Shown here piece by piece: positions 23,282-59,528 of a stretch of DNA of 64,000 nucleotides. Source of the stretch: Impatiens glandulifera (Eukaryota; Streptophyta; Magnoliopsida; Ericales; Balsaminaceae). Location of the stretch: assembly GCF_907164915.1 (NCBI RefSeq), contig NC_061864.1, forward strand, positions 15,197,889 to 15,261,888. The letters are read 5' to 3'. The notes below the pieces were generated by a model. The model saw nothing but the letters and a program-made list of their open reading frames with translations, ran no database searches and had not been told where the DNA came from. Position 1 is the stretch's first letter; every line of letters starts with the position of its first letter. The position numbers and the translations under genes were made by a program.

Positions 23282-23340
23282 TCTCATCCTTTCTACTCTC
23301 AAGTCACCTTCCAAGCAGTTTCTCCTCTTCTTGAGAAGTC

Positions 23341-24882
23341 ATGGATTTTTACACCTTTATCCATTTCTTTCTATCATGTTCTCTCTCCTTCTCACTCTTC
23401 TACCTACTTCTCTCTTCCCTCATAACCCGATTAACCAGCTTAGTCGCCCCGACCCGACAATGCGAATGTCAAATCTGTCAAGATTTTCTCTCAAGAAACT
23501 GGACTAAGAAATTCCACAATATATCCGATTGGTACTCCGACTTACTCCAAAAATCTCCGACCGGAACCATACACATCCACGTGGCCAACAACATCATCAC
23601 GGCGAATCCAGAAAATGTTGAACACATGTTAAAAACAAGGTTCCATAATTACCCAAAAGGGAAACAATTCTCTGCCATTCTTGGTGATTTACTTGGTCAA
23701 GGAATCTTCAACGTGGATGGTCATTCATGGAAGTTTCAGCGAAAACTAGCTAGCCTCGAGCTCGGGAGTGTCTCAGTTAGATCCTATGCTTTCCGGGTTA
23801 TCTCATCTGAGATCCAGACCCGATTCATTCCGTTGATAGAATCTTTTTCCGATCATGAACGAGTTGTTGACTTGCAAGACGTGTTTAGGAGATTCGCTTT
23901 TGATACCATTTGTCGATTTTCTTTCGGGCTTGACCCGGGATGTCTCCGCAGTTCATTACCCGAGTCGGAGTTCGCATCGGCTTTTGATAAGGCGTCGAGA
24001 CTCTCCGCTGAACGGGCGATGACTGCTTCTCCGTTGGTGTGGAAGATGAAGCGGTTTTTCAATTTGGGTTCGGAGAAGGAATTGAGATCAGCGATTCGTT
24101 CCATTGATGTTCTTGCAGGGGAAGTGATTAAGCAAAAGAAGGAAATGGGTACGGGTCAAATCCAGAACGATCTTCTATCTAGATTCATGTCAACGATCAG
24201 CGACGATGATTACTTGCGTGACATAGTTGTTAGCTTCTTATTGGCGGGTCGTGACACAATTGCATCGGGTCTTACAAGTTTGTTCTGGTTATTGGCTCAA
24301 AACAGAGAAATTGTGTCAATGATCCGAGAAGAAGCCGAACGGGTCATGGGTCAATCGGATACGGGTCTCCCGACATTCGAGCAGTTACAGAAGATGAACT
24401 ATCTTCAGGCTGCGGTGTACGAGAGTTTAAGGATTTTCCCACCTGTACAATTTGATTCAAAGTTTGCTTCACAACCCGATGTTCTTCCGGACGGGTCTTT
24501 TGTAAAGAGTGGGACTCGGGTCACTTACCACCCGTACGCGATGGGTCGGATGGAGAAAATATGGGGTTCGGATTGCCTTGAATTCAAGCCCGAACGGTGG
24601 TTATCTGATGGTATCTTCACGCCGGTAAATCCTTTCAAGTTCTCGGTTTTTCAGGCCGGGAATAGGGTTTGTTTGGGGAAGGAAATGGCGGTGGTGGAGA
24701 TGAAGTTGGTGGCGGTTTCTTTCATAAGGCGGTTTGATATCGAGTTGGCGGCGCCGTCAGATCAGAGTATGCTAAGGTTCTCTCCTGGTTTGACAGCCAC
24801 CGTAAGCGGCGGCCTCCCGGTGGTTATTCAACGGCGGCGTGATAGTGAGATTATTGAAAATGCCTTTGTATTAAGAAAGTAA
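23341..24882 (+). CDS. CYP94C1-like: Cytochrome P450, CYP94C-like fatty-acid/jasmonate oxidase
   Basis: One uninterrupted exon encodes 513 residues, normal for the intronless CYP94 family. Residues 1-35 form a hydrophobic ER anchor. A Cys-rich segment (CECQICQDFL, about 40-49), which I recall from CYP94C proteins, follows instead of the usual Pro-rich hinge. The I helix carries AGRDT (302-306), the K helix ESLR (361-364), a PERW follows, and the heme loop is FQAGNRVCLG with the axial Cys at 444. All catalytic landmarks are intact. CYP94C enzymes oxidise 12-hydroxy-jasmonoyl-Ile to the 12-carboxy form and so help switch off jasmonate signalling; other CYP94 members omega-hydroxylate fatty acids. 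The subfamily call rests on remembered similarity, so CYP94 is firm and CYP94C probable. Confidence 0.9.
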   Translation: MDFYTFIHFFLSCSLSFSLFYLLLSSLITRLTSLVAPTRQCECQICQDFLSRNWTKKFHNISDWYSDLLQKSPTGTIHIHVANNIITANPENVEHMLKTRFHNYPKGKQFSAILGDLLGQGIFNVDGHSWKFQRKLASLELGSVSVRSYAFRVISSEIQTRFIPLIESFSDHERVVDLQDVFRRFAFDTICRFSFGLDPGCLRSSLPESEFASAFDKASRLSAERAMTASPLVWKMKRFFNLGSEKELRSAIRSIDVLAGEVIKQKKEMGTGQIQNDLLSRFMSTISDDDYLRDIVVSFLLAGRDTIASGLTSLFWLLAQNREIVSMIREEAERVMGQSDTGLPTFEQLQKMNYLQAAVYESLRIFPPVQFDSKFASQPDVLPDGSFVKSGTRVTYHPYAMGRMEKIWGSDCLEFKPERWLSDGIFTPVNPFKFSVFQAGNRVCLGKEMAVVEMKLVAVSFIRRFDIELAAPSDQSMLRFSPGLTATVSGGLPVVIQRRRDSEIIENAFVLRK

Positions 24883-25317: not shown

Positions 25318-25819
25318 TTAATAATATATATATAATGATGCTTAATTTTTAAAGTGTCCGGATTGCCGAGTCGAGAACTGTGGTTAATTTGGATATATGT
25401 GAGAGTAAATGGATACTTGGGTCGGATTGTAGGTTGACCCGTCCATAAACTTAAAACGGTTAAATATAAAATAAAAAATGCTATAGGTATGGTTCGAACT
25501 TGCAACCTAACAAAATAAATACAACCTTTTAACCAACTAGGCTAATAACACTTTATATTTTTAATTTAATTCAAATTTTGATAAACGCGTGAATTCAACT
25601 TTTTAACTAACTAATATATATATATATATAATGATGTTTAATTTTTAAAGTGTCCAGATTGCCGGGTCGAAATAGATACTTGAGTCGGATATATGTGAGA
25701 GTAAATAGATACTTGGGTCGGATAATGAGTTGACCCGTCTATAAAAATTTTACCGTAATATTTTTTTTACAATTTTTTATATTATCATTACTCGTGCAAA
25801 TAGACGAGATACATGCTAG
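25318..25819 (+). mobile_element. Short non-autonomous Helitron
   Basis: The 3' end has an 18-base hairpin (CTCGT...ACGAG, 25791-25808) followed seven bases later by CTAG (25816-25819) and then T, the classic Helitron terminus. The body is two head-to-tail copies of the unit found nine times in reverse orientation at 31222-33801. Each copy starts (TA)n-ATGATG and contains AGTGTCC...GATTGCC. The first copy also keeps the reversed tRNA-like module (GGTTCGAACTTGCAACC). The 5' TC is not preserved, so the left boundary is approximate. Confidence 0.7.
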
Positions 25820-26554
25820 TTTTTATAAAACGTGAAAGATCACGGTTTCCCACTTATAAATAAGAGAGATACATTTAAATAACAAAATTGATTATATAAT
25901 TTACTAATTATATTCATCAATATATATCTAGCTACTTCCACTAAAAAGGTGAAGTGATGGGGATAAATTATTATTATTATTATATGTTTGGCTGATCACC
26001 GAATATTGCCAAATGCCGATTAGATGTCTTAAGTTTATCTAAATGAGTCATTAGGAATATGTTTTGACATCTATGATTTGATCTTGGGTTATTTTATCAA
26101 AAGACAGCTGATCATGATTCATGTTTATCATGTATTAAATTTGTTGGACTTCCAAAAAAAGACTAAATAAAAAATGAAGATTAAAAAATTAAAAAATAAA
26201 ATAAAATAAATAATAGTAAAATAAGTCCAATCTTTAACTAGTATAAATTTATTGAGGAATAATAAGAGTAACAACAGTGAATGGTTAAAAAAATATGAAT
26301 CAAACCAAACTGTTAAAATCACAAAGTTAATTGTTGATTGAGATTGATTTGTTTGTTTTTCTTGAGATAAAAGATGTATGAAAGTGTAATTATGACACGT
26401 GCTTTCATAAATAATTTATATAACTAATTTATTTTTACTAATTATTTTTATTTTCTATCTCATATATATATATATAATTATATAATTATGCAAAATCTCA
26501 TTTATAAAATATATATATTTATATATAAAATTATAAAATTATTTCAATATTTTT

Positions 26555-28923: not shown

Positions 28924-30305
28924 TTAGCGGTATCCAAATGTTGATGATCTTGGAGCATTCTCCTGCAATTCAAAAGAAACAGCAAGCCAGATAATTAAGG
29001 CTAATGTTTGTTTGATGACTAAATCAATGGAATTTAAAGCTATATATATGTTTGTTTAAGTTTCAATTTCATCTACCTTAACAAACGAAACCACGACAGT
29101 GATGTCATCAAGCTTTCCCCCAGAATAACGAAAACCAGCATTTTGGGAAGCTGTTGAGAATGGTGTTGATCTCGTCTTATCATCCCCACTCTGTCTTGCA
29201 AAAGCTGCAATCTTTTGAGCTGTGTCTTGAGGATCTGACCCAGCTCGAATGACATTCACAGCAATAGAGGCTATCTCATTGCTGTACAAATTATCAAACA
29301 GTCCATCGCTTCCAGCAATTATAACATCTTCGGGGATAACAGGAACAGAAAACACCTGAAAAAGTTAACCCAAGTTATAAAAAGAAAAGTTTCATAGGAG
29401 AAATTAATACAACAAACAAAAACTAATTAACCTGGGCAGAGCTAAGAAGATCAGCACCATTCCCAATGGCTGCTAATTGATATGTACGATTGAAGGCATG
29501 TTGCTGAGCTGGAGATTTGAAAACAGTGCAATCATCTCTAATCACCATGAAACCACTGTCTCCCAAGTTAATGGCATGAAGACCCTACAAATGATCAAAC
29601 ACATAATCAAAATCAAATCTTTCTAAAGAAATTGTGGTCTGGATTACTACTTACACGCTCTGTCAGTGCTATTATGCAAACTGTTGATGATCCTTCAGCT
29701 TGCAGCAAAGCATGAGCCTTTTGAAGAACTCTGGCTGTATCTATACAACCCTTAGGCTCTTCTCGAATTGCAGTAATAGAGCGTAACATTACTTCTCGGG
29801 CAAATTCCTCAGAATCGACCCCAACTTTATCCCAGTACTTGACTCCATCAGCTACACCAATTGCATGTTCATCAGGACAAATGAAATGGGCATCGTCTCC
29901 ACCTGTTTCCTCTTTATTAGGATTAGGCAGGTAACACGATCCCGATATGATTTTCAGTTTCATAAAGCGGGATGATGCAGAAGAAGGAATGGAAAACTTG
30001 TTTGGATTAGTTTTAGGCTCGGAGGGGAAAAATGTGGTGTCTGATAAACGGTTAAATGATGGAATAGAAACTGTGGTAGGAATTGCTCCACCAATGGTCA
30101 TGTTCATCCAAAGAACATTTGATGGAGTAGGATAGAGGGTTTCAGGTTGTGGCGGCGGTGGTTGTTCAAAGATAGTTGGAATTTCCGGCGGCTGCGGTTG
30201 CATTTGCGTTTGCCTATGCGGCGGGGGCGACGGAGGGCGGGGAGAAGAAGGAGAAGATGATCCATCGCAGATCTTGACGTGGGCCTTTAAATCGGACTCC
30301 ACTGC
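28924..30305 (-). CDS. PP2C phosphatase part of an IDD-PP2C fusion gene
   Basis: This follows in frame after the UAA that ends the zinc-finger part (30306-30308). Exons are 29655-30305 (rest of exon 2), 29432-29584, 29077-29355 and 28924-28962, all with GT/AG introns in phase 0. A Ser/Pro/Gln-rich linker of about 110 residues leads into a PP2C domain of the plant PP2C55/80-like group. Numbered from the ATG at 30783, GGDDAHF is at 268-274, GVADGV with metal Asp286, NLGDSG at 356-361, GSDGLFDN with Asp418, and DDITVVV at 484-490. The usual GG after DGV is Lys289-Tyr290. Such enzymes remove phosphate from Ser/Thr using two metal ions. If the UAA ends translation, this part could only be made by reinitiation, for example at the ATG at 29963 (259 residues), or by readthrough. 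The last exon is chosen because its splice sites keep frame; without it the protein ends at 29056 (VDEIET). Confidence 0.75.
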
Positions 30306-30783
30306 TTATTTCTTGAGGCATTTTGGACACTTCCAATTCTTATCTTTGCCGTGTTTTCTGCCATAATGATTCTTAATACCTGTGGTATCGCCCAAAGCAT
30401 GTTTCGGGTCGTGGTGTTTGCAACTGGACTCAGGACAAATGTACACTTTTCTCCGACGTCCTTCCCTGTACGACGTCTCCTGGAGCTCTGGCGACGCCAA
30501 GTTATGTCTGCGCAGGTGATATTTCAAATTTTGTAGACGTCTGAATCCTTTATTACACACACGACAAACATAATTCTGAGTTTCTAACAGAGTTTCAGGT
30601 GACAAAGCAATCACCACAGAATCGGGATCTGAAAAAAAAAACACAAATCAAGAAACAAATTACTATAACGTTTGAATCAATAAATAGACTTGATTCGGAG
30701 TTCTCACCAGGCATTCCAGGACGGTTTCTTCTCCTCCTTACTGGAGCATTCCCCTGATCTTCCCCACCCATAGAGTTCGACAT
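30306..30783 (-). CDS. IDD-type C2H2 zinc-finger part, truncated by UAA
   Basis: Exon 1 is 30708-30783, with a phase-1 intron at 30629-30707. Exon 2 begins at 30628 and reaches UAA at 30306-30308, giving 132 residues. The basic RRRRNRPG followed by MPDPDSVVIALSP is the conserved start of INDETERMINATE-DOMAIN transcription factors, including their nuclear signal and intron position. Zinc finger 1 is C-x2-C-x12-H-x3-H (CRVC...HLRRH). Finger 2 is C-x4-C...H-x4-H (CPESSC...HYGRKH). Finger 3 starts WKCPKCLKK, and the next codon is UAA where the family has Tyr; the remaining finger residues (AVESDLKAHVKIC) follow in frame. Finger 4 is missing. I prefer the ATG at 30783 over 30834, because a TATA box at 30860 would place transcription start near 30830. 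IDD proteins bind DNA and partner with GRAS regulators. It may be a recent pseudogene or a two-product gene. Confidence 0.8.
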
Positions 30784-30859: not shown

Positions 30860-30867
30860 TATTTATA
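30860..30867 (-). promoter_or_regulatory. TATA box of the IDD-PP2C gene
   Basis: The minus strand reads TATAAATA, 77 bases upstream of the ATG at 30783. The short IDD relative at 42846 has a related TATATTTAAGG stretch at a similar distance, with shared flanking sequence (GGAARAAATATGC on the plus strand). Confidence 0.6.
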
Positions 30868-31234
30868 GGAAGAAATATGCTTAGACCAGCAATAGTTTAT
30901 TTGACATTTTACCATCTTTAAGTTCTTGTTTGATGTATACTATATTATTTGAGATTCATTTTTAGTAATAATTAATAAATAAATCTAAAATGAGAAAAGA
31001 TTTTATGTTATTACTGATTAGTTATTACAAATACATTTAATTATTATAAAATATATAAAAAATGGTAATCTTATTTTAGATTCTCAATCTTTAAAAATTA
31101 ATGCATATCAGTATTATATTCAACTATATTTATTTAGTTGGCATGTATTCGTTGTATAATAATGTAAATTTTTGTACATATCAATCTTTAAGGTTAAAAA
31201 AAAAAATGTTATAATGTGTAACTAGCCTTTAGCC

Positions 31235-31248: not shown

Positions 31249-31479
31249 ATTAATAATATAAAAAACCGTGAAAATTATGGATAACATTTTTAATTTTATT
31301 TTTAAATATTTTAAGTTTATGGGTGGGTCAACCCACAATCCGAACCAAATATCTATTTACTCAACATCAATAAATATATATATATATATATATATATATT
31401 AGTTAAAAAGTTGAACTTATATTAATATTAAAATGTTCCGCGTTTATCAAATTTGGTGTTAAATTTAAAATATAAAGTC

Positions 31480-33650
31480 TTTGTAGCCTAGTTCGTTAAA
31501 AAGTTGTACTTGTTTTTGTTAGGTTGCAAATTCGAAACATACCTCTAGCATTTTTAATTTTATTTTTAACCGTTTTAAATTTAAAGATGGGTCAACCCAC
31601 AATCCGACCCAAGTATCCAAATTAACCACAGCTTTCGACCCGGCAATCCGGACACTTTAAAAATTAAGCATCATTATATATATATAGACTTTGTAGCATA
31701 GTTTGTTAAAGAGTTGTACTTGTTTTGTTAGGTTGCAAGTTCGAAACATACCTCTAGCATTTTTAATTTTATTTTTAACCGTTCTAAATTTAAAGGCGGG
31801 TCAACCCACAATCCGACCCAAGTATCCAAATTAACCACAACTCTCGACCCGGCAATCCAGACACTTTAAAAATTAAGCATCATTATATATATATATATAT
31901 TAGTTAGTTAAAAATTTGAACTTATATTAATATTAAAACGTTTCGCGTTTATCAAATTTGGTGTTAAATTTAAAATATAAAATCTTTGTAGCCTAGTTGG
32001 TTAAAAAGTTGTACTTGTTTTTATTAGGTTGCAAGTTCGAAACATACCTCTAGCATTTTTAATTTTATTTTTAACCGTTTTAAATTTAAAGGCGGGTCAA
32101 CCCACAATCCGACCCAAGTATCCAAATTAACCACAGCTTTCGACCCGGCAATCCGGACACTTTAAAAATTAAGTATCATTATATATATATAGACTTTGTA
32201 GCCTAGTTTTTTAAGAGTTGTACTTGTTTTGTTAGGTTGCAAGTTCGAAACATACCTCTAGCATTTTTAATTTTATTTTTAACCGTTCTAAATTTAAAGG
32301 CGGGTCAACCCACAATCCGACCCAAATATCCAAATTAACCACAACTCTCGACCCGGCAATCCGGACACTTTAAAAATTAAGCATCATTATATATATATAG
32401 ATTAGTTAGTTAAAAAGTTGAACTTATATTAATATTAAAACATCCCGCGTTTATCAAATTTGGTGTTGAATTTAAAATATAAAGTCTTTGTAGCATAGTT
32501 GGTTAAAGAGTTGTACTTGTTTTGTTAGGTTGCAAGTTCAAACATACCTCTAGCATTTTCAATTTTATTTTTAACCGTTTTAAATTTAAAGGCGGGTCAA
32601 CCTACAATCCGACCCAAGTATCCAAATTAACCACAGCTCTCGACCCGGCAATCCGAACACTTTAAAAATTAAACATCATTATATATATATATATATATAT
32701 AGACTTTGTAGCCTAGTTGGTTAAAGAGTTGTACTTGTTTTGTTAGGTTGCAAGTTCGAAACATACCTCTAGCATTTTTAATTTTATTTTTAACCGTTTT
32801 AAATTTAAAGGCGGGTCAACCCACAATCCGACCCAAGTATCCAAATTAACCACAGCTCTCGACCCGGAAATCCGGACACTTTAAAAATTAAGCATCATTA
32901 TATATATATATATTAGTTAGTTAAAAAGTTGAACTTATATTAATATTAAAACATCACGCGTTTATCAAATTTGGTGTTGAATTTAAAATATAAAGTCTTT
33001 GTAGCCTAGTTGGTTAAAGAGTTGTACTTGTTTTGTTAGGTTGCAAGTTCGAAACATACTTCTAGCATTTTTAATTTTATTTTTAACCGTTTTAAATTTA
33101 AAAGCGGGTCAACCCACAATCCGACCCAAGTATCCAAATTAACCACAGCTCTCGACTCGGCAATCCGACACTTTAAAAATTAAGCATCATTATATATATA
33201 TAGATTAGTTAGTTAAAAAGTTGAACTTATATTAATATTAAAACGTCTCGCGTTTATCAAATTTGGTGTTGAACTTAAAATATAAAGTTTTTGTAGCCTA
33301 GTTGGTTAAAGAATTGTACTTGTTTTGTTAGGTTGTAAGTTCGAAACATACCTCTAGCATTTTTAATTTTATTTTTAACCGTTTTAAATTTAAAGGCGGG
33401 TCAACCTACAATCCGACCCAAGTATCCAAATTAACCACAGCTCTCGACTCGGCAATCCGGACACTTTAAAAATTAAGCATCATTATATATATATATAGAT
33501 TATAGTTAAAAAGTTGAACTTATATTAATATTAAAACGTCCCGCGTTTATCAAATTTGGTGTTGACTTAAAATATAAAGTCTTTGTAGCCTAGTTGGTTA
33601 AAGAGTTGTACTTGTTTTGTTAGGTTGTAAGTTTGAAACATACCTCTAGC
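31480..33650 (+). repeat. Nine tandem tRNA-like A-box/B-box modules
   Basis: The sequence TTTGTAGCCTAGTTGGTTAA (A-box-like) followed about 25 bases later by GGTTGCAAGTTCGAAACA (B-box-like) occurs at 31480, 31690, 31985, 32195, 32487, 32705, 32998, 33290 and 33582. A-box TAGCNNAGTTGG and B-box GTTCGAAAC are at the spacing of a tRNA gene or tRNA-derived SINE promoter. No cloverleaf acceptor stem forms, so these are not functional tRNAs. Spacings are 210, 295, 210, 292, 218, 293, 292 and 292 bases. The long form carries an extra ~80-base block with GCGTTTATCAAATTTGGTGT. Confidence 0.85.
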
Positions 33651-33801
33651 ATTTTTAATTTTATTTTTAACCGTTTTAAATTTAAAGGCGGGTCAACCCA
33701 CAATCCGACTCAAGTATCCAAATTAACCACAACTCTCGACCCGACAATCCGGACATTTTAAAAATTAAGCATCATTATATATATATATATATATATATAG
33801 A

Positions 33802-42536: not shown

Positions 42537-42846
42537 CTAAGGTCTAGGATCGCCATTGTTCGGTCTCTCTTTTCCGACCACCGGCGCCAAATTGTGGGTT
42601 CTCATGTGATATCGAAGGTTCTGTTCACGACTGAAACACTTGTTGCACTCATAGCAAATGAAATATTGAGTCGCTAAGAGCGATTCCGACGACAAATCAA
42701 TCACTTCAGCTTAGAAAAACAAATAAATTAAAAGTTAGGACGTACGATGAAATTGAATCAATAAATTATGAATTCTCACCAGGCCTTTCAGGAAGGTTTT
42801 TGGTTTCTTTTCCTCCTTGATCTTTCCCACCTCTAGAATTCGCCAT
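42537..42846 (-). CDS. Short single-finger IDD relative
   Basis: Two exons (42780-42846 and 42537-42709) separated by a 70-base GT/AG intron give 79 residues ending in TAG. Intron position and phase 1 are the same as in the IDD-PP2C gene, and the N-termini align (MANSRGGKDQGG against MSNSMGGEDQG). After the intron comes AEVIDLSSESLLATQYFIC, the IDD lead-in, and one intact C2H2 finger (CYEC...HMRTH). The sequence then stops after NLAPVVGKERPNNGDPRP, without fingers 2-4. The RRRRNRP nuclear signal is replaced by KETKNLPERPG. The promoter sequence up to about 43070 resembles 30859-31110. It may encode a small protein that interferes with IDD partners, or it may be a truncated pseudogene; splice sites and frame are intact. 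Confidence 0.65.
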
Positions 42847-42925
42847 TAAATAAATAAAATGAGAAGTACTGACGATGAAGAAAAAACCTATATTTAAGGG
42901 AAAAATATGCCTTGTTTGATTTTCA

Positions 42926-42929
42926 GTAA

Positions 42930-42960
<31 letters not shown>

Positions 42961-42963
42961 ATC
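42926..42963. repeat. (AAAT)n microsatellite in the mini-IDD promoter
   Basis: About nine TAAA/AAAT repeats lie 80 bases upstream of the mini-IDD start. The homologous promoter at about 30967-30985 has only two or three. Confidence 0.85.
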
Positions 42964-43079
42964 TCAAATGATGACAGCTTTTTGTCTAAAAATGATAAAG
43001 TTTATTAATATAAAATATAAAATGTAATCTATAACTAGATTCTCAATATTTATAATTTAATGAGATTTTATTCATTTAT

Positions 43080-47625: not shown

Positions 47626-49282
47626 TTAATAATAGTCTTTAGCCATAAGAATTAGGTCATTTTTCTTATGCATTACCACACCCGGTTTAACATCTGAATC
47701 AATATCTTCTTTTTTCATTCCATGAGGAAGTTCCCATTTAAATTTGTAAAGTAGATTAGCTAGTGCAAGCTCCACATTTACAACTCCTAGGTTCAATCCC
47801 GGACAGCCTCTCCTACCCGCCCCGAAAGGGATAAATCCAAAGTCATGACCTCTAAAATCAATATTCTTTGCATTCTCTATAAATCTCTCGGGACAAAACT
47901 CTTGGGGTGTTGTCCAGTAGTTGGGATCTCTTCCAATCGCCCACAAGTTGACAAAGACAATAGATCCTTTACGAATTTCGTATCCTTTTATTTTACACGT
48001 TTGAGTTGCAAGATGAGGAATTGCGAGTGGTGCTGGAGGATGCAATCGTAACGTCTCTTTCACCACAGCCTTTAGATAAACTAGTTTATCAAGATCATCT
48101 TCAAGGACATGGCAACACATGACTTCACGATGATTATCAATGATATTCTCGTGGTTGATTGATCTTACTTCTTGTTGGACTTTATTCATGACTTTAGGAT
48201 TCTTCATCAATTCAGTCATTGCCCATACCAAAGTAGCAGAACTTGTGCTTGTCCCACCAACAAAAATATCCTTACCATAAAATAAACAAATAAAATTTCA
48301 ATAGTTTTCATGACTTCATAACATAAAGTTTTAATTAGAGGGTAATAGTTATGTTAATTACCATTAACTGGCATTTAATATGATCCATGGTGAGGTGCAC
48401 CGGAAGTGAACTATCTTCCTGAAGTTGGAGCAAGACATCTATGATGTCCTCTTGATGTTCATAATTCTTTCTTTCCACAAGATGATCATCAATGATTTCT
48501 TGGAGAAACAAATCTAGATCTTTACAAATTTTATCCGCCCACTTCGTTCTTCCCACAAGCTTATCAACCCATCCCATGTATGGAAAATAATCGCGCATAT
48601 AGAATGATCCCGCGACTACCTGAATTTCATGCAAAAGATCTTGGAACTTACTCTTCGTCTTAAACTTATCGATTGTGTACTCATCATCGTACCTCTTTCC
48701 GAAAGCAATCCTGCATATTATAGAATTGAATAGATAGATGGTTATCTCACTCAGATTAACGGGCTTGGACTGAGATGCGAGCTGTGAGATGATGTTGATG
48801 GTGCGAGAGACTTCGTCATATCGAACCGGGCGAAAGTAGAGAACTTGCTTTGCGCTTAGCAAATGGTGAACAGTGATCTTCCTGATTTCCCTCCAATATT
48901 CTCCATATGGAGCGAAAGTCACGGTTAATCCATTGTAGGATATTTTCATTTGGCCATAAAATGTAGGACGGCCTGCGAGTTGACGATCGTGGGTGCTAAG
49001 AGCTTCTTTAGCGATTTCTGCTGAAGAAACAACTATGGCTGTTAAGGAGCCTAGGCGAAGAGACATGAGGGGGCCATATTTGTGGGAAAGTTGGTAGAGA
49101 TGGCCATGGAGATTTGCAAAGTTAAGTTGGTGCAAGTTACCAATTATTGGAAACCTAGGAGGTCCTGGTGGATCATTTGTTTTATTTTGGGTATGCTTTT
49201 CCTGTAGAAATAACCACAACAATAATGGTATGATTAGCAAAACAATGGTAAGAAAAAATATAAGAAACAAATTTAGTTCCAT
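47626..49282 (-). CDS. CYP71-clan cytochrome P450, copy 1
   Basis: Exon 1 is 48362-49282 (307 codons) and exon 2 47626-48270 (214 residues), with a 91-base phase-0 intron at the position typical of CYP71-clan genes. The protein has 521 residues. An N-terminal membrane anchor (about 5-27) is followed by the hinge PPGPPRFPIIGN. The C helix is WREIRK, the K helix ETLR (379-382), then PERF, and the heme loop FGAGRRGCPG with Cys at about 463. The family looks CYP71/CYP83-like; the substrate cannot be told, though relatives act in specialised metabolism. The I-helix motif reads G-G-T-S-T (312-316), where P450s usually have A/G-G-x-D/E-T, so the acidic residue is Ser315. Codons and frame are otherwise intact. 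It is tandem with the gene at 52730. Confidence 0.88.
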
Positions 49283-49325
49283 ATTTGATTATTTTGGATC
49301 CCCTTATTATCGACTCTCTTATGCC

Positions 49326-52729: not shown

Positions 52730-54360
52730 TTAATAAGGCTTAGCCATAAGAATTAGGTCATTTTTCTTATGCATAGTAATACCTGGTCTAAGTTCTGAAT
52801 CAATATCTTCATTTTTCATCCCATGAGGAAGCTCCCATTTAAATTGGTAAAGTAGATTAGCCAGTGCAAGCTCCACAATTATAACTCCTAGGTTCAATCC
52901 AGGGCATCCTCTCCTTCCCGCACCAAAAGGGATAAATCCGAAGTCTTGACCTCTAAAATCAATGTTCTTTGCACTCTCAAGAAATCTCTCTGGCCAAAAC
53001 TCTTCAGGGTTTTCCCAGTATTCAGGATCTCTTCCAATCGCCAACAAGTTCATGTAGACAATATTTCCTTTCAGAATCTTGTATCCCTTTATATTGCACG
53101 TTTGAGTTGCCAGATGAGGGACTCCAAGCGGTGCTGGGGGATGCAATCTTAATGTCTCTTTCACTACAGCTTTTAGATAAATTAGTTTATCAAGATCATC
53201 TTCAAGGATGTAACAATATCCTTGATTCTCATGCTTGATTGATCTTACTTCTTCTTGAACTTTATTCATGGATTTAGGGTTCTTTATCAATTCAATCATT
53301 GCCCATACCAAAGTAACTGAACTTGGGTCTGTTCCAGCCACAAAAATATCCTAAACAATGAAATAAATAAAGAATCTTAATTTTATTATAATGTGGTAAT
53401 TAGAAAATAAATTAAATTAGAGGGTGATAGTTACATTACCAGTAGCTGACATTTAATATGATCCATTGTGAGGTGCACTTGAAGTGAGCGGTCCTCCTGA
53501 AGTTGGAACAAGACATCTATGATGCACTCTTGATGTTCATAATCATGAACTCCTTTCTTTTTTCCCACAAGATGATCATCAATGATTTCTTGCAGAAACA
53601 AATCTAGATCTGTACAAACCCTGTCCACCCATTTCGTTCTTCCCACAAGCTTATCAACCCAACCCAAGTATGGAAAATAATCGCACATATATAATGATCC
53701 TTGCACTTCCTGAATTTCATGCAAGAGATCTTGGAACTTACTCTTGGTCTTATCCCCTCTATAGTCATCGTCGAACCTCTTTCCAAAAGCAATCCTGCAA
53801 ATGATGGAGTTGACAAGATATATGGTTACCTCACTCAGATTGATCGGCTTGGATTGAGACGCGAGCTGGGAGATGATGTTGATGGTGCGAGAGACTTCGT
53901 CGTATCGAACCGGACGAAAGAAATGAACTCGCTTGAGGCTCAACATATGGAGGACGTTGATCTTCCTGATTTCCCTCCAGTATTCTCCATATTGAGCGAA
54001 CGTCGTGTCTAATCCATCATAGGATACTTTCATTTGGCCGTAAAATCTAGGCCGGCCTGCCAGTTCACGGTCGTGGGTGCTGAGAGCTTCTTTTGCTATG
54101 TCGGCGGAAGAAATGACTATGGCTGTTAAGGAGCCTAGTCGAAGAGACATGATGGGACCATATTTGTGGGAAAGTTGGTAGAGATGGCCATGGAGATTTG
54201 AAAAGTTAAGTTGGTGCAGGTTACCAATTATTGGAAACCTTGGTGGTCCTGGCGGGGATTGATTTTGGCTAGTATGGTACTTGTCATGTATAAAAAACCA
54301 CAACAACAATAATGGTGATATGATGAGTAAAACAATTGCAAGAAACGAATTTAGTTCCAT
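52730..54360 (-). CDS. CYP71-clan cytochrome P450, copy 2
   Basis: Exon 1 is 53440-54360 (307 codons) and exon 2 52730-53350 (206 residues), with an 89-base phase-0 intron. The 513-residue protein is closely similar to the gene at 47626-49282 along its whole length. Both share the exon 1 length, the PPGPPRFPIIGN hinge, WREIRK, ETLR, PERF and the heme loop FGAGRRGCPG (Cys about 456). It lacks about eight residues of the loop before the K helix. The I helix reads A-G-T-D-P (312-316), where the conserved Thr that helps split oxygen is Pro316. Either it uses an altered mechanism, as some P450s without this Thr do, or it is drifting. The function and substrate are unknown. The ATG at 54360 is set by the membrane anchor and the homologous start of copy 1. 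Confidence 0.88.
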
Positions 54361-54389
54361 GTTTGATTAGTACGGATTCCACTTATCAT

Positions 54390-54901: not shown

Positions 54902-55064
54902 TATTAGTATATTGTATATATCTTGTTACCTTGTTTAGATTCCTCGATTAGTGGGTTACCTTGTTTAGATTCCTAGATTAGTGGTTTACCTTATTAAGAG
55001 TCTTTTGACTAGTATATATTGTAACATTGTTTATCAATAAGAACCATGGGATTAATCTCTATCA
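54902..55064 (+). repeat. 5' LTR of the young copia element
   Basis: The 163-base LTR is identical to the 3' LTR at 59523-59685 by eye. It ends in CA directly before the primer-binding site. Inside there is a tandem repeat of a ~33-base phrase (TTACCTTGTTTAGATTCCT...ATTAGTGG). Its left edge begins TATTAG, while the 3' LTR begins TGTATTAG, so the terminal TG is missing here. Confidence 0.92.
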
Positions 55065-55075
55065 TGGTATCAGAG
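55065..55075 (+). other. Primer-binding site
   Basis: TGGTATCAGAG follows the 5' LTR directly and is complementary to the 3' end of plant initiator tRNA-Met, the standard copia primer. Confidence 0.85.
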
Positions 55076-55158
55076 TAAAGATCCTCTCAAGATCATCAAT
55101 CGAATTTTTTTTTTTTTTTCTCTTCCTCCCACCTTGCTGCCTCACGCACAAACTTCTA

Positions 55159-56415
55159 ATGTCTGTCCCACCTACTAATTCAGACTCCTCCTCCAATCAA
55201 AGTCAGACGCCCACCACCATGTCTGTTTCTCAATACCACTCTGCTTTCTCTGTTAACAATCTCCGCTCCATAATTCCTATCACCCTAGAGATGGGTAGCG
55301 AGGAATATCTCTCTTGGGCAGACCTTCTCGAAAACCACTGCTTGATTCACAATGTTTACGAACATCTCAAACCAAAAACTCCCAACGCCTCCGAAACACC
55401 TTCAACATCTTCCGAGACCGACTCTCTTCTGTGGAAACGCCTTGACGCCCTTGTCAAGCAATGGATATTTGGAACAATATCCAAGGATCTACTAAACACG
55501 ATCCAAAAACCTGGTATGACGACTACTCAGGCTTGGGAACGTTTAGCGAATATATTTCAAGATAACACAGGTTCTCGCGCTATGTATCTTGAAAATAGGT
55601 TTTCTCAAATTCGTCTCAATGATTTCCCAAACATGAGTGCTTATTGCACTGAATTGAAGATGATTGCGGATCAACTTGCTAATGTTGATTGCCCCGTTTC
55701 TGAAAATCGACTGGTGTTGCGTCTACTTGGGGGTTTGAATGAAAACTACGAAACAATCGCCACCATAATAGGTCAAAAGAAGCCTCTCCCATCTTTCTAC
55801 GATGCTAGATCTGATTTGCTCCTTGTTGAAACAAGGAAGGATGAATTCGTCCACACAAACACCTCTTTTATTGCCTCGGACGATCGTAGCCAAGGCCGCG
55901 GAAACAACTCTAGCCAATCAGCCCGTGCTACTGGCCAGCAGCAGCAGCAGGGCACCTCTAGCGCGCAGGAACAGGCCGGCCAGGGCCGAGGACGCAGCCA
56001 GCGCGGCAGAGGACGCGGTCGCAACACCAGCCGCACATACCACCAGCAGCAGCAATTCTGGGCACCTCCTGGCCAACAGCAATGGGCACAGTGGGCGCCT
56101 GCGGGCTGGACAGCACCCCCTTGTCCCTACCCGACACAACAGATCTGGCCGCAGCAGCAAAGCGCCCCCTGGCACGCATCTGGTCAACAGCAACAAGGCG
56201 CCTCCTGGCGCGGTTCTGGCTATCAGCAGCAACACACTCGGACAGCAGGAGTAGGCGTACTCGGTTCTCGGCCACAGCAGGCCTACATGGCTGAGACGAG
56301 CCAGCAGCAGCCCCAAAGTTACGTTGCAACCGATATCAATCAGGCGATGCACACTTATCCCTTACTCCGCCTGACGATACTTGGTACATGGATTCGGGAG
56401 CAACTTCACACATGA
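55159..56415 (+). CDS. Copia gag protein
   Basis: The ATG at 55159 (MSVPPTNSDSSS) is chosen because the longer upstream frame begins inside the LTR. The protein has 418 residues. A capsid-like UBN2/retrotran_gag segment (about 50-230) includes WADLLENHCLIHNV and LRLLGGLNENYETIA. The C-terminal third is Gln/Gly/Arg-rich (GRGRGR, many QQQ) and no CCHC zinc knuckle is visible, so RNA binding may rest on the RGG-like tract. The frame diverts near 56352 into an unrelated tail ending at 56415, and pol continues in the -1 frame. In relatives gag and pol are one frame, so a one-base loss near 56352-56360 is likely. Confidence 0.88.
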   Translation: MSVPPTNSDSSSNQSQTPTTMSVSQYHSAFSVNNLRSIIPITLEMGSEEYLSWADLLENHCLIHNVYEHLKPKTPNASETPSTSSETDSLLWKRLDALVKQWIFGTISKDLLNTIQKPGMTTTQAWERLANIFQDNTGSRAMYLENRFSQIRLNDFPNMSAYCTELKMIADQLANVDCPVSENRLVLRLLGGLNENYETIATIIGQKKPLPSFYDARSDLLLVETRKDEFVHTNTSFIASDDRSQGRGNNSSQSARATGQQQQQGTSSAQEQAGQGRGRSQRGRGRGRNTSRTYHQQQQFWAPPGQQQWAQWAPAGWTAPPCPYPTQQIWPQQQSAPWHASGQQQQGASWRGSGYQQQHTRTAGVGVLGSRPQQAYMAETSQQQPQSYVATDINQAMHTYPLLRLTILGTWIREQLHT

Positions 56416-59400
56416 CACCCAACTCAGGTAGTCTCTCGCCTTATTCTAATTTAAATTGTGTTAAAAATATCATTGTTGGGAGTGGACAGGAAATCCCGAT
56501 TCGCGGTATTGGTAAAACTAACTTAAAACCACCCTTACCACCCTTACTTCTGAACAATGTTCTACATGCTCCCAAACTCATTAAAAATCTTATATCTATT
56601 CGTCGGTTTACTCGTGATAACAACGTCTCTGTAGAATTTGACTCACTTGGTTTTTCTGTAAAGGATTTCCAAACGGGGAAGGTTATCATGAGGAACAATA
56701 GCTCGGGGGATCTCTACCCACTCTCTCTGTCGAGCCAAAGCCAAAAACCCCCAACTAATTCTTCGTTTACTGCAATTTCGTCAAATTTATGGCATAATAG
56801 ATTAGGACACCCCGGTGTCGATATTTTGCATTCTCTCAATAAATCAAATTCTATTTCTTGTAAGCCCGTTTTAGGGTCTAAACTCTGTGAGTCTTGCATC
56901 TTTGGTAAACAAGTTAAGTTACCATTTACCAATTCTGTCTCTTATACTACTTCCCCATTCGATATTATTCATAGTGATTTGTGGACGTCGCCTGTGCTAA
57001 GTACAAATGGACATAAATACTATATTCTGTTTCTTGATGATTACACAAATTTCCTTTGGACTTTTCCAATTGGAAACAAATCCCAAGTATTCTCCGTCTT
57101 CTCTACACTTCAAAATCAAATTCAAACACAATTTCAAAAGCCCATTAAAACAATCCAATGTGACAACGGAACTGAATATAACAACAGTCAATTTCGTACA
57201 TTTTGTGACAAAAATGGTCTACAATTTCGCCTCTCTTGCCCCTATACTTCTCCTCAAAATGGTAAAGCAGAAAGAAAAATACGCACCATAAATAACATGA
57301 TTCGAACATTGCTTACTCATGCTTCTCTCCCGTTAAATTTTTGGCATCACGCCCTCGAAATGACCACTTATTTCCTAAATATTCTTCCAAATAAACAAAT
57401 TCGAAATTTCTCACCCACTCAACTTCTATATAACCGAACTCCTTCTTACTCTCACCTAAAAATTTTCGGTTGTCTTTGCTATCCTCTTCTTCCTCCAACC
57501 ACTATTCACAAACTTCATAAACGCTCTACCCCTTGTGTCTTTTTAGGATACCCCTCTAATCATCGCGGCTACAAATGCTACGACCCAGCCTCAAAAAGAT
57601 TTATCATCTCTCGTCACGTCATTTTTGACGAAACAAAATTTCCCTTTTCTCTTGTCCAAAACCCAAACTCAACTCACCCATCTCAATCCGAACCAATAAC
57701 CATCCCAATACACATCCAAACCCCGCCCATCACCGAGTCCATTTCCCCACCAAACAACACTCCATTACCGAGCCCATTATCAACTCAACACACTCCACCA
57801 AACCCACCATCACCCATCACCACTTCACCAGGCCCAAACCCAAACACGACCAGCCCGTCCACAAGACCAAACCGTCCAAATCATTCACCAACACGGACAA
57901 TACGAACCCGCGCAATGGATGGGATTGTCTGTCCAAAACGCATTTTCAATCTAAACACACTCACATCTCCATCGCCTATTCCCAAAAACCCAAAGTTAGC
58001 TTTATCAGACCCGAATTGGAAAGCCGCCATGGACGATGAGTTTAACGCTTTAATTAGTAATAAGACTTGGGACTTGGTTCCGCGTCCTCAGGGTGTTGAT
58101 ATTATACGATGCATGTGGATTTTTAAGCATAAAACTAACTCTGACGGCTCTTTTGAGAGGCATAAAGCCCGTCTTGTTGGTGATGGCAGGTCTCAGCAGA
58201 TTGGAATCAATTGTGAAGAAACCTTTAGTCCTGTTGTCAAACCAGCCACCATACGAACTGTTCTGAGCATTGCTTTATCGAAGTCTTGGTCCATTCACCA
58301 AATGGACGTCAAGAATGCATTTTTACATGGTAATCTCAACGAAACAGTTTACATGCATCAGCCTTTCGGTTTTAGAGACAAAATCTTTCCCGACCATGTT
58401 TGTTTATTGCGCAAATCTTTATACGGCTTAAAACAAGCTCCTCGTGCTTGGTATCAAAGGTTTGCAGATTTTGTCTCTACAATCGGTTTTACACACAGCA
58501 CGACTGATCATTCGCTTTTTATCTATCAACATGGGTCCGAAATTGCCTATCTACTCTTGTATGTTGATGACATTATCATTACGGCTTCGTCTGATCAGTT
58601 ACGTCAGACTCTCATGAAAAGCTTAGGCGCAGAATTTGCTATGAAGGATTTAGGTAAATTAAGCTATTTCTTGGGAGTTGCTGTATCGTATACTAAGGAT
58701 GGACTTTGTCTTAGTCAGAAGAAATATGCTGAAGAAATTATTGATCGTGCTGGAATGTCTACTTGCAAATCAACACAAACGCCGGTCGATACAAATGGCA
58801 AACTTGGAAAATCAACTAGTCCACCAGTCTCTGACCCCACTCATTACAGAAGTTTAGCCGGAGCACTACAGTATCTTACTTTCACACGTCCTGATATTTC
58901 ATATGCAGTCCAGCAAATTTGCCTCCACATGCATGATCCGAAAGAGGCTCACTTGGCTGCCTTACACAGAATCATTCGATACTTACAGGGTACAAAGCAC
59001 TATGGCCTTCATCTTTACAAATCCTCACTGTCTACACTCGTTTCATATACTGATGCAGACTGGGGAGGATGTCCAGATACCCGTCGCTCTACATCTGGCT
59101 ATTGCGTCTTCCTAGGCGATAATCTTCTGTCTTGGTCGTCAAAACGGCAATCCACACTTTCTCGTTCTAGTGCTGAAGCTGAATATAGAGGAGTTGCCAA
59201 TGTTGTCTCCGAATCCTGTTGGCTTCGCAATTTATTGTTAGAACTTCGTATCTCATTGGACAAAGCCACACTGGTCTACTGCGACAACATAAGTGCGATT
59301 TATCTCTCCCAAAATCCGGTCCAACATCAACGTACCAAACACATCGAAATGGACATACACTTTGTAAGGGAAAAAGTAGATAGAGGTAAAGTTCGCATTC

Positions 59401-59528
59401 TTCATATGCCTTCTCGTTTTCAAATCGCTGACATATTCACCAAAGGACTTCCGCGCATACTATTTGAAGATTTCAGAGACAGTCTCAGCGTCCGAGAATC
59501 TCCCGTTTCGACTGCGGGGGTGTATTAG
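56388..59528 (+). CDS. Copia pol polyprotein
   Basis: This open frame of 1046 codons lies in the -1 frame relative to gag. In order it has the aspartic protease (MDSGATSHM, residues 1-9), GAG-pre-integrase zinc finger (WHNRLGHPG...CESCIFGK, about 135-175), and integrase core with DDYTNF, CDNGTEYN and QNGKAERK. These are followed by a Pro/Ser/Thr-rich spacer (about 425-510), reverse transcriptase (MDVKNAFLHG, LLYVDDIIIT) and RNase H (YTDADWGG, SSAEAEYRG, CDNISAI, KHIEMDIHFVREK). All catalytic acids seem present. It stops inside the first bases of the 3' LTR. The first ATG at 56388 sits inside the protease motif, so the real protein would begin in gag. Confidence 0.93.
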   Translation: MDSGATSHMTPNSGSLSPYSNLNCVKNIIVGSGQEIPIRGIGKTNLKPPLPPLLLNNVLHAPKLIKNLISIRRFTRDNNVSVEFDSLGFSVKDFQTGKVIMRNNSSGDLYPLSLSSQSQKPPTNSSFTAISSNLWHNRLGHPGVDILHSLNKSNSISCKPVLGSKLCESCIFGKQVKLPFTNSVSYTTSPFDIIHSDLWTSPVLSTNGHKYYILFLDDYTNFLWTFPIGNKSQVFSVFSTLQNQIQTQFQKPIKTIQCDNGTEYNNSQFRTFCDKNGLQFRLSCPYTSPQNGKAERKIRTINNMIRTLLTHASLPLNFWHHALEMTTYFLNILPNKQIRNFSPTQLLYNRTPSYSHLKIFGCLCYPLLPPTTIHKLHKRSTPCVFLGYPSNHRGYKCYDPASKRFIISRHVIFDETKFPFSLVQNPNSTHPSQSEPITIPIHIQTPPITESISPPNNTPLPSPLSTQHTPPNPPSPITTSPGPNPNTTSPSTRPNRPNHSPTRTIRTRAMDGIVCPKRIFNLNTLTSPSPIPKNPKLALSDPNWKAAMDDEFNALISNKTWDLVPRPQGVDIIRCMWIFKHKTNSDGSFERHKARLVGDGRSQQIGINCEETFSPVVKPATIRTVLSIALSKSWSIHQMDVKNAFLHGNLNETVYMHQPFGFRDKIFPDHVCLLRKSLYGLKQAPRAWYQRFADFVSTIGFTHSTTDHSLFIYQHGSEIAYLLLYVDDIIITASSDQLRQTLMKSLGAEFAMKDLGKLSYFLGVAVSYTKDGLCLSQKKYAEEIIDRAGMSTCKSTQTPVDTNGKLGKSTSPPVSDPTHYRSLAGALQYLTFTRPDISYAVQQICLHMHDPKEAHLAALHRIIRYLQGTKHYGLHLYKSSLSTLVSYTDADWGGCPDTRRSTSGYCVFLGDNLLSWSSKRQSTLSRSSAEAEYRGVANVVSESCWLRNLLLELRISLDKATLVYCDNISAIYLSQNPVQHQRTKHIEMDIHFVREKVDRGKVRILHMPSRFQIADIFTKGLPRILFEDFRDSLSVRESPVSTAGVY
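59511..59522 (+). other. Polypurine tract and TG before the 3' LTR
   Basis: CTGCGGGGGTG lies directly before the LTR body at 59523. G-rich runs of this kind prime plus-strand synthesis in copia elements. Confidence 0.6.

Follow-up and report, generated by a model that had tools for sequence, protein, structure and literature searches.

Introduction

In a window of 64,000 nucleotides of Impatiens glandulifera DNA (C3:15197889-15261888; assembly of 653.9 Mb in 1110 contigs), one locus begins like the gene of an IDD zinc-finger factor and ends like that of a PP2C protein phosphatase, with an in-frame stop codon on the way. The question raised by this locus is whether the two parts belong to a genuine gene fusion and, if so, what the fused protein would do. 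Here we report that the locus is probably one damaged copy of a chimeric family that is lineage-specific and whose intact paralogues would make a nuclear, DNA-tethered protein with a PP2C fold. The family comprises five copies whose finger-bearing heads form a single clade; four of the copies have open frames, and both parts are under constraint.

Results

The window gene (30783-28924, minus strand, as are all of its features given below) consists of five exons that are joined across GT-AG introns into 1521 nt, i.e., 506 codons and a final stop. A TATA-like box read from the sequence (TATAAATA, 30860..30867) lies about 77 nt 5' of the ATG. Exon 1 (30708..30783) contains the ATG and a basic stretch resembling a nuclear signal (RRRRNRPG, by motif reading). 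Exon 2 (29655..30628) encodes fingers 1-3, the linker and the start of the PP2C part, which continues through exon 3 (29432..29584) and exon 4 (29077..29355) and ends, together with the stop codon, in exon 5 (28924..28962). The encoded protein was submitted to Pfam as three pieces, with X replacing the internal stop, and scored above the cut-offs for C2H2 finger 1 (30504..30572, within exon 2; zf-C2H2, residues 45-67, 28.3 bits; cut-off 25.2), BIRD-IDD finger 2 (30351..30455; PF22996, residues 84-118, 63.5 bits; cut-off 27), the C2HC-type BIRD-IDD finger 3 (30267..30338; PF22995, residues 123-146, 44.1 bits; cut-off 27) and PP2C (29.9 bits; cut-off 20.3). Finger 3 is broken by a UAA at codon 133 (30308-30306), which is the lone internal stop of the frame and is replaced by a sense codon in the alignment of all four relatives described below. 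Splicing and Pfam uphold the exon plan with its coordinates, the combination of IDD fingers 1-3 with PP2C and the single UAA, all of which had been proposed in an earlier reading of this DNA without database searches (the sequence-only reading).

The gene has varied neighbours in the window. A tandem repeat array with a unit of 208-292 bp (31470-33787) lies directly upstream of it, and similar pieces are found in inverted orientation within 25528-25821. By eye, two cytochrome P450-like genes lying next to each other on the minus strand (47626-49288 and 52730-54366), a further, separate P450-like frame with a single exon (23335-24882, plus strand) and gag-pol-like frames of 468 and 1077 codons resembling a Ty1-copia retrotransposon (55009-59528, plus strand) were also recognized. 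A relic of a fusion head (42537..43062, minus strand) is located 12 kb upstream of the window gene on the same strand and consists of a related upstream stretch, with 70% identity to 30955-31103, followed by exon 1, finger 1 and then a stop; the head relic proper occupies 42846-42537.

The genome was searched with P0002, an Impatiens glandulifera protein of 541 aa in which Pfam places IDD fingers 2 and 3 above and the PP2C models just below cut-off. Among the 86 matches, head and PP2C part occur together at five places, namely C3:3.57 Mb, C3:3.83 Mb, C3:5.01 Mb, C1:151.31 Mb and the window. The four relatives can be spliced at GT-AG introns into frames with zero internal stops that encode 569 (C3:3.57), 622 (C3:3.83), 611 (C3:5.01) and 583 (C1:151.3) residues. 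The fusion is thus beyond chance, because four more loci of the same genome share its architecture, promoter region, start and introns with the window copy. A TATA box and leader are present at all five starts, with CCTATAAATA and a similar 5' leader preceding the ATG in each of the four relatives. In the C1:151.31 Mb copy (L035, L043), the usual acceptor of intron 1 is lost, and an AG six bases downstream preserves the frame. No further copies were detected within 100 kb of the window (tblastn, E up to 1e-4, 20 stretches). The single exon 2 running through the linker into the PP2C part, as described by the sequence-only reading, is correct for the window copy and peculiar to it, but in the other four copies an intron interrupts the linker.

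The database models bear on whether the head and the phosphatase are two adjoining genes with separate transcripts. Two of the three models, P0001 and P0003, begin at a Met inside the linker, as this explanation would have it; P0003 (311 aa) is, by eye, a shortened model of the C3:5.01 Mb copy that starts downstream of the head. P0002, which by eye corresponds to the C3:3.57 Mb copy, with identical introns but a start further downstream, speaks against separate genes by joining both parts through the same splices as those inferred, and in four of the five copies the linker is open, its intron is GT-AG and no stop separates the finger and PP2C parts. We regard two separate genes as highly improbable. 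The C3:3.83 Mb and C1 copies had no protein among the matches listed in two protein searches, which contained only three Impatiens proteins; this counts against those copies or their annotation.

Pieces of the family are found elsewhere in the genome. Between 22.56 and 25.75 Mb of C4 there are 11 head matches without an adjoining listed PP2C match (59-80% protein identity), eight of which contain an internal stop. One of them (L039, C4:25402843-25406181) is 93% identical in DNA to the C1 copy and reaches from a point inside exon 1 to a point inside finger 3. Dispersal of these head-only pieces by a mobile element is conceivable. PP2C-only pieces are located at C6:2.07, 2.10 and 2.17 Mb, C1:134.758 Mb and C3:65.376 Mb, and are 84-93% identical to P0002 compared to 58-66% to PP2C 55 of Rhododendron (P0060).

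The window copy is a broken member of the family, with both a stop and a deletion that fused two exons that are separate in its relatives. Compared with the four relatives, it lacks the linker intron and part of the linker, with the reading frame unchanged; its Ser/Pro-rich linker (29964..30266) is longer and split by the intron in the relatives. Because the UAA cuts finger 3, only a fragment with fingers 1 and 2 could be made, possibly together with a separate phosphatase initiated at an AUG further downstream. When the part downstream of the UAA was used as protein query, the best match was P0001 (100% identity over 91% of the query), a 'probable protein phosphatase 2C 55' of Impatiens glandulifera with 339 aa that starts at a Met downstream of the UAA. 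Since the stop precedes the phosphatase and P0001 starts behind it, the claim that the window locus itself makes the fusion protein is not supported.

An assembly or sequencing error at the UAA would leave the window copy intact. In favour of such an error, the UAA is the sole break in 506 codons, and in the codon model described below the omega of the PP2C part on the window branch is 0.27, which is lower than 1 (p = 2e-4), as expected under constraint, and not different from the background branches (p = 0.7). The same copy, however, carries the deletion of linker and intron, and the omega of its head branch (0.66) is distinguishable neither from 1 (p = 0.32) nor from the other branches (p = 0.11). 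An error is therefore rather improbable in our judgement, and we continue with a damaged copy, in which the finger part is indistinguishable from neutral. From its omega below 1, the phosphatase part of this copy either remains under constraint or has lost it only recently.

Purifying selection acts on both the finger and the phosphatase parts of the family. A codon model for the five copies together (run with a program of our own that was not compared with established software; for each part the best among 15 topologies was taken) yielded omega values significantly below 1 for both the head (0.385, p = 5e-6) and the PP2C part (0.239, p = 7e-18). Over the ten pairs of copies, pairwise omega (NG86) was 0.02-0.70 for the head, 0.17-0.33 for the PP2C part and 0.32-0.52 for the linker. 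With YN00, omega of the head reached up to 0.83, and that of the linker was 0.62-1.93 in seven of the ten pairs and failed in the other three; constraint on the linker is not established because the two methods conflict. Intron lengths vary among the copies in steps that are not multiples of three. In neutral simulations with an assumed drift of 0.10 changes per site, the frames remained open in 9, 2, 3 and 4 of 2000 runs. Head and PP2C parts prefer different trees, which suggests sequence exchange between copies and may bias the rates.

These results can be set against the explanation that all copies are decaying or silent duplicates and that the signal of selection is the memory of an earlier function. 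The broken window copy, the head-only and PP2C-only pieces scattered over C4, C6, C1 and C3, and the two of four open copies without a protein among the matches listed are what general decay would leave behind. It is less easily reconciled with four frames of about 600 codons that are open although the copies have diverged to pairwise dS values of 0.08-0.33 in the head as well as the PP2C part (NG86), or with the heads of the C3:3.83 and C3:5.01 Mb copies, which differ almost solely at silent sites (dN 0.006, dS 0.235; NG86). We consider decay of the whole family unlikely, and retention of a constrained family with one damaged copy remains our reading.

PF22996 and PF22995 scored above cut-off in the window copy and all four relatives, and the basic nuclear-type signal is present in all five copies. 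Each copy retains all 14 conserved Cys/His columns and 10 of the 12 predicted DNA-contact positions, which we take to be helix positions -1, 2, 3 and 6; the excess over the other conserved head columns (36-39 of 62 retained) is not significant (Fisher p 0.09-0.15). The basic stretch, the Cys/His columns and the contact residues together suggest a nuclear location and DNA binding. Finger 4 (PF22992) had no match in the window piece (E up to 1) or in any of the four relatives, while a control IDD protein (P0221) scored 88.4 bits, and its RDSF/THRAFC core was sought and found absent in all five copies. Fingers 1-3 of IDD proteins bind DNA, and fingers 3 and 4 contact SHORT-ROOT (SHR), with the helix of finger 4 docking in a groove of the latter (PMC5873383). 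Recruitment of the phosphatase to GRAS targets, as envisaged by the sequence-only reading, is doubtful because the finger that docks SHORT-ROOT is missing (PMC5873383); finger 3, also an SHR contact in IDD proteins, is kept in the relatives.

The PP2C part contains the motifs GG[DE]DAHF, VADGV, SDGLFDN and GGKLDDIT, presumably those of the metal site, in all five copies. A predicted structure of P0001, which represents the PP2C part of the window copy (339 aa), had a mean pLDDT of 77.4 and a pTM of 0.72 and matched rice PBCP (6ae9) best (TM 0.87 by target length). A predicted structure of P0002 from a 50-row alignment was discarded (mean pLDDT 48.8). Pfam scores of the PP2C part are near the cut-offs in the fusion copies and in some cases below; that of the C3:3.57 Mb copy is just below, which may be why domain listings missed the fusion. 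The canonical PP2C N-terminus, to which two ordinary Impatiens genes devote an exon of its own, is absent, as three linkers scored no better than their own shuffles against a profile of 107 N-terminal sequences; the same comparison ruled out a look-alike of this region that had been spotted by eye in the linker. The sequence-only reading was therefore right that both IDD finger 4 and the PP2C N-terminus are missing.

Phosphatase activity is in question because the motif DGVGGW is altered in all five copies. Counting the first match in each protein, 138 of 141 members of the family have it, the exceptions being the three Impatiens proteins; it reads DGVEEW in three fusion copies, DGVEDW in one and DGVKYW in the window copy, where Lys-Tyr (29835..29840) stands in place of the Gly-Gly of the family. 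Of 129 PP2C columns that hardly vary in the family, 18, 16 and 19 are changed in P0001, P0002 and P0003, respectively, so that catalysis may be weak or gone. The copies could then be DNA-bound pseudophosphatases, in which the PP2C part is a partner-binding fold and the protein occupies IDD sites without GRAS co-factors. This would agree with the ordinary Impatiens PP2C at C3:62.6 Mb (L048), which retains DGVGGW. It fits less well with the metal-site motifs kept in all five copies, the low omega of the PP2C part (0.24) and rice PBCP, which has an S at the first G of the motif. We take this first Gly as Gly180 of ABI1, on the basis of our own motif alignment and not a computed one. The abi1-1 change (ABI1 G180D) blocks receptor binding, while SnRK2s stay inactivated (PMC4986877, PMC11612456); a change at this site thus alters regulation, as would suit a pseudophosphatase, but need not abolish activity. 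On balance, a pseudophosphatase is possible but somewhat doubtful.

The fusion architecture was not found outside Impatiens glandulifera among the matches listed in three protein searches (best 120 each), in agreement with the sequence-only reading, which knew of no plant family joining the two domains. In the search with P0002, 7982 candidates sharing most words were scored and 1020 matched; among the best 120 of these, only three Impatiens proteins exceeded 430 bits, and the next match was P0121 of Striga (430 bits), a sequence with PP2C repeats and PP2C models only. With residues 1-130 of P0002 as query, 173 of 255 candidates matched; among the best 120 of these 173, P0002 alone lacks PF22992, which is carried by the other 119 proteins, none of which has a PP2C in its domain listing. 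No report of an IDD-PP2C fusion was found among the papers listed in literature searches. A study of the PP2C7 family describes members with a nucleic-acid-binding accessory domain, SAP, in green algae and Bigelowiella; no zinc finger is named among the accessory domains in the section examined, and a count of 'zinc finger' over the main text gives 0 (PMC4524716). Four unbroken paralogues, selection on both parts and the lack of a listed member elsewhere bear out the claim of a genuine in-frame fusion instead of neighbouring genes: the chimeric IDD-PP2C family is real and constrained, and no species other than Impatiens glandulifera has shown it to date.

The five fusion heads form one clade (100/99) with a long stem in a tree of 28 rows. 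This tree, which covers 3 of the roughly 25 IDD-like places in the genome, does not place the donor. In two ordinary IDD loci (L046, L047), exon 2 spans fingers 1-3 and runs on into finger 4 before the intron; the break of the fusion therefore seems to lie inside IDD exon 2, just after finger 3. The genome search also located an ordinary PP2C 55-like gene (C2:3574929-3577293) and an ordinary IDD gene (L047, C2:3598167-3598523) on the same strand of C2, about 21 kb apart and with the IDD gene upstream, which is the order of the fusion. By eye, this IDD gene does not resemble the IDD1 type, and it is no more identical to the fusion heads than other IDDs are. An origin through fusion of neighbouring IDD and PP2C genes is an attractive idea, but unproved. 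In Arabidopsis, IDD1 is At5g66730 (PMC6539433) and a PP2C7 member is At5g66720 (PMC4524716); the two have neighbouring locus numbers.

Discussion

Judged from sequence features, the intact paralogues most likely encode a nuclear, DNA-tethered phosphatase or pseudophosphatase. The start and first exons would derive from an IDD gene and contribute a basic nuclear-type signal and fingers 1-3, and the later exons would derive from a PP2C7 / PP2C 55-type gene minus its own N-terminal exon. The resulting nuclear protein would bind IDD-type DNA sites via fingers 1-3 and, without finger 4, would not dock on SHORT-ROOT in the usual way. With a PP2C fold that retains the metal-site motifs but has a changed DGVGGW loop, the protein would then be present at IDD target genes, where it would either act as a tethered phosphatase or, with little or no activity, occupy the sites in competition with ordinary IDD proteins. 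The former is possible, though less likely than not: in Impatiens, a finger-guided PP2C may dephosphorylate factors at IDD target genes without the need for SHORT-ROOT; if this is true, a GRAS-linked transcription module becomes phosphatase-controlled.

A sequence-specific plant DNA-binding module that is retained together with a PP2C core would represent either targeted dephosphorylation as it arises in nature or a natural IDD competitor. Both the finger that docks GRAS proteins and the region that targets PP2C have been removed in the fusion family, which provides a multi-copy example of the birth, retention and duplication of a chimeric gene and, in the window copy, of its loss.

Among known systems, the SAP-bearing PP2C7 proteins described in PMC4524716 differ from the fusion in their accessory domain and in their organisms, green algae and Bigelowiella. 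Like the IDD / BIRD factors (JACKDAW, MAGPIE, GAF1, IDD1), the fusion proteins have a basic stretch, fingers 1-3 and all 14 conserved Cys/His columns, and their genes share with ordinary Impatiens IDD genes the intron ahead of DPD/NPD. Unlike these factors, they lack finger 4 and hence the SHR-binding helix, and PP2C follows in its place; the fusion heads, on their long stem, do not exceed about 64% identity to any of the 23 canonical IDD rows compared. With the PP2C7 phosphatases of the PP2C 55-PP2C 80 type (At4g16580, At5g66720; rice PBCP, 6ae9, as a relative of solved structure), the fusion proteins have in common a core of about 259 residues, the metal-site motifs and matching exon cuts in the core, but they differ from them in that the N-terminal exon of these phosphatases is absent, the GG of DGVGGW is replaced and zinc fingers are attached.
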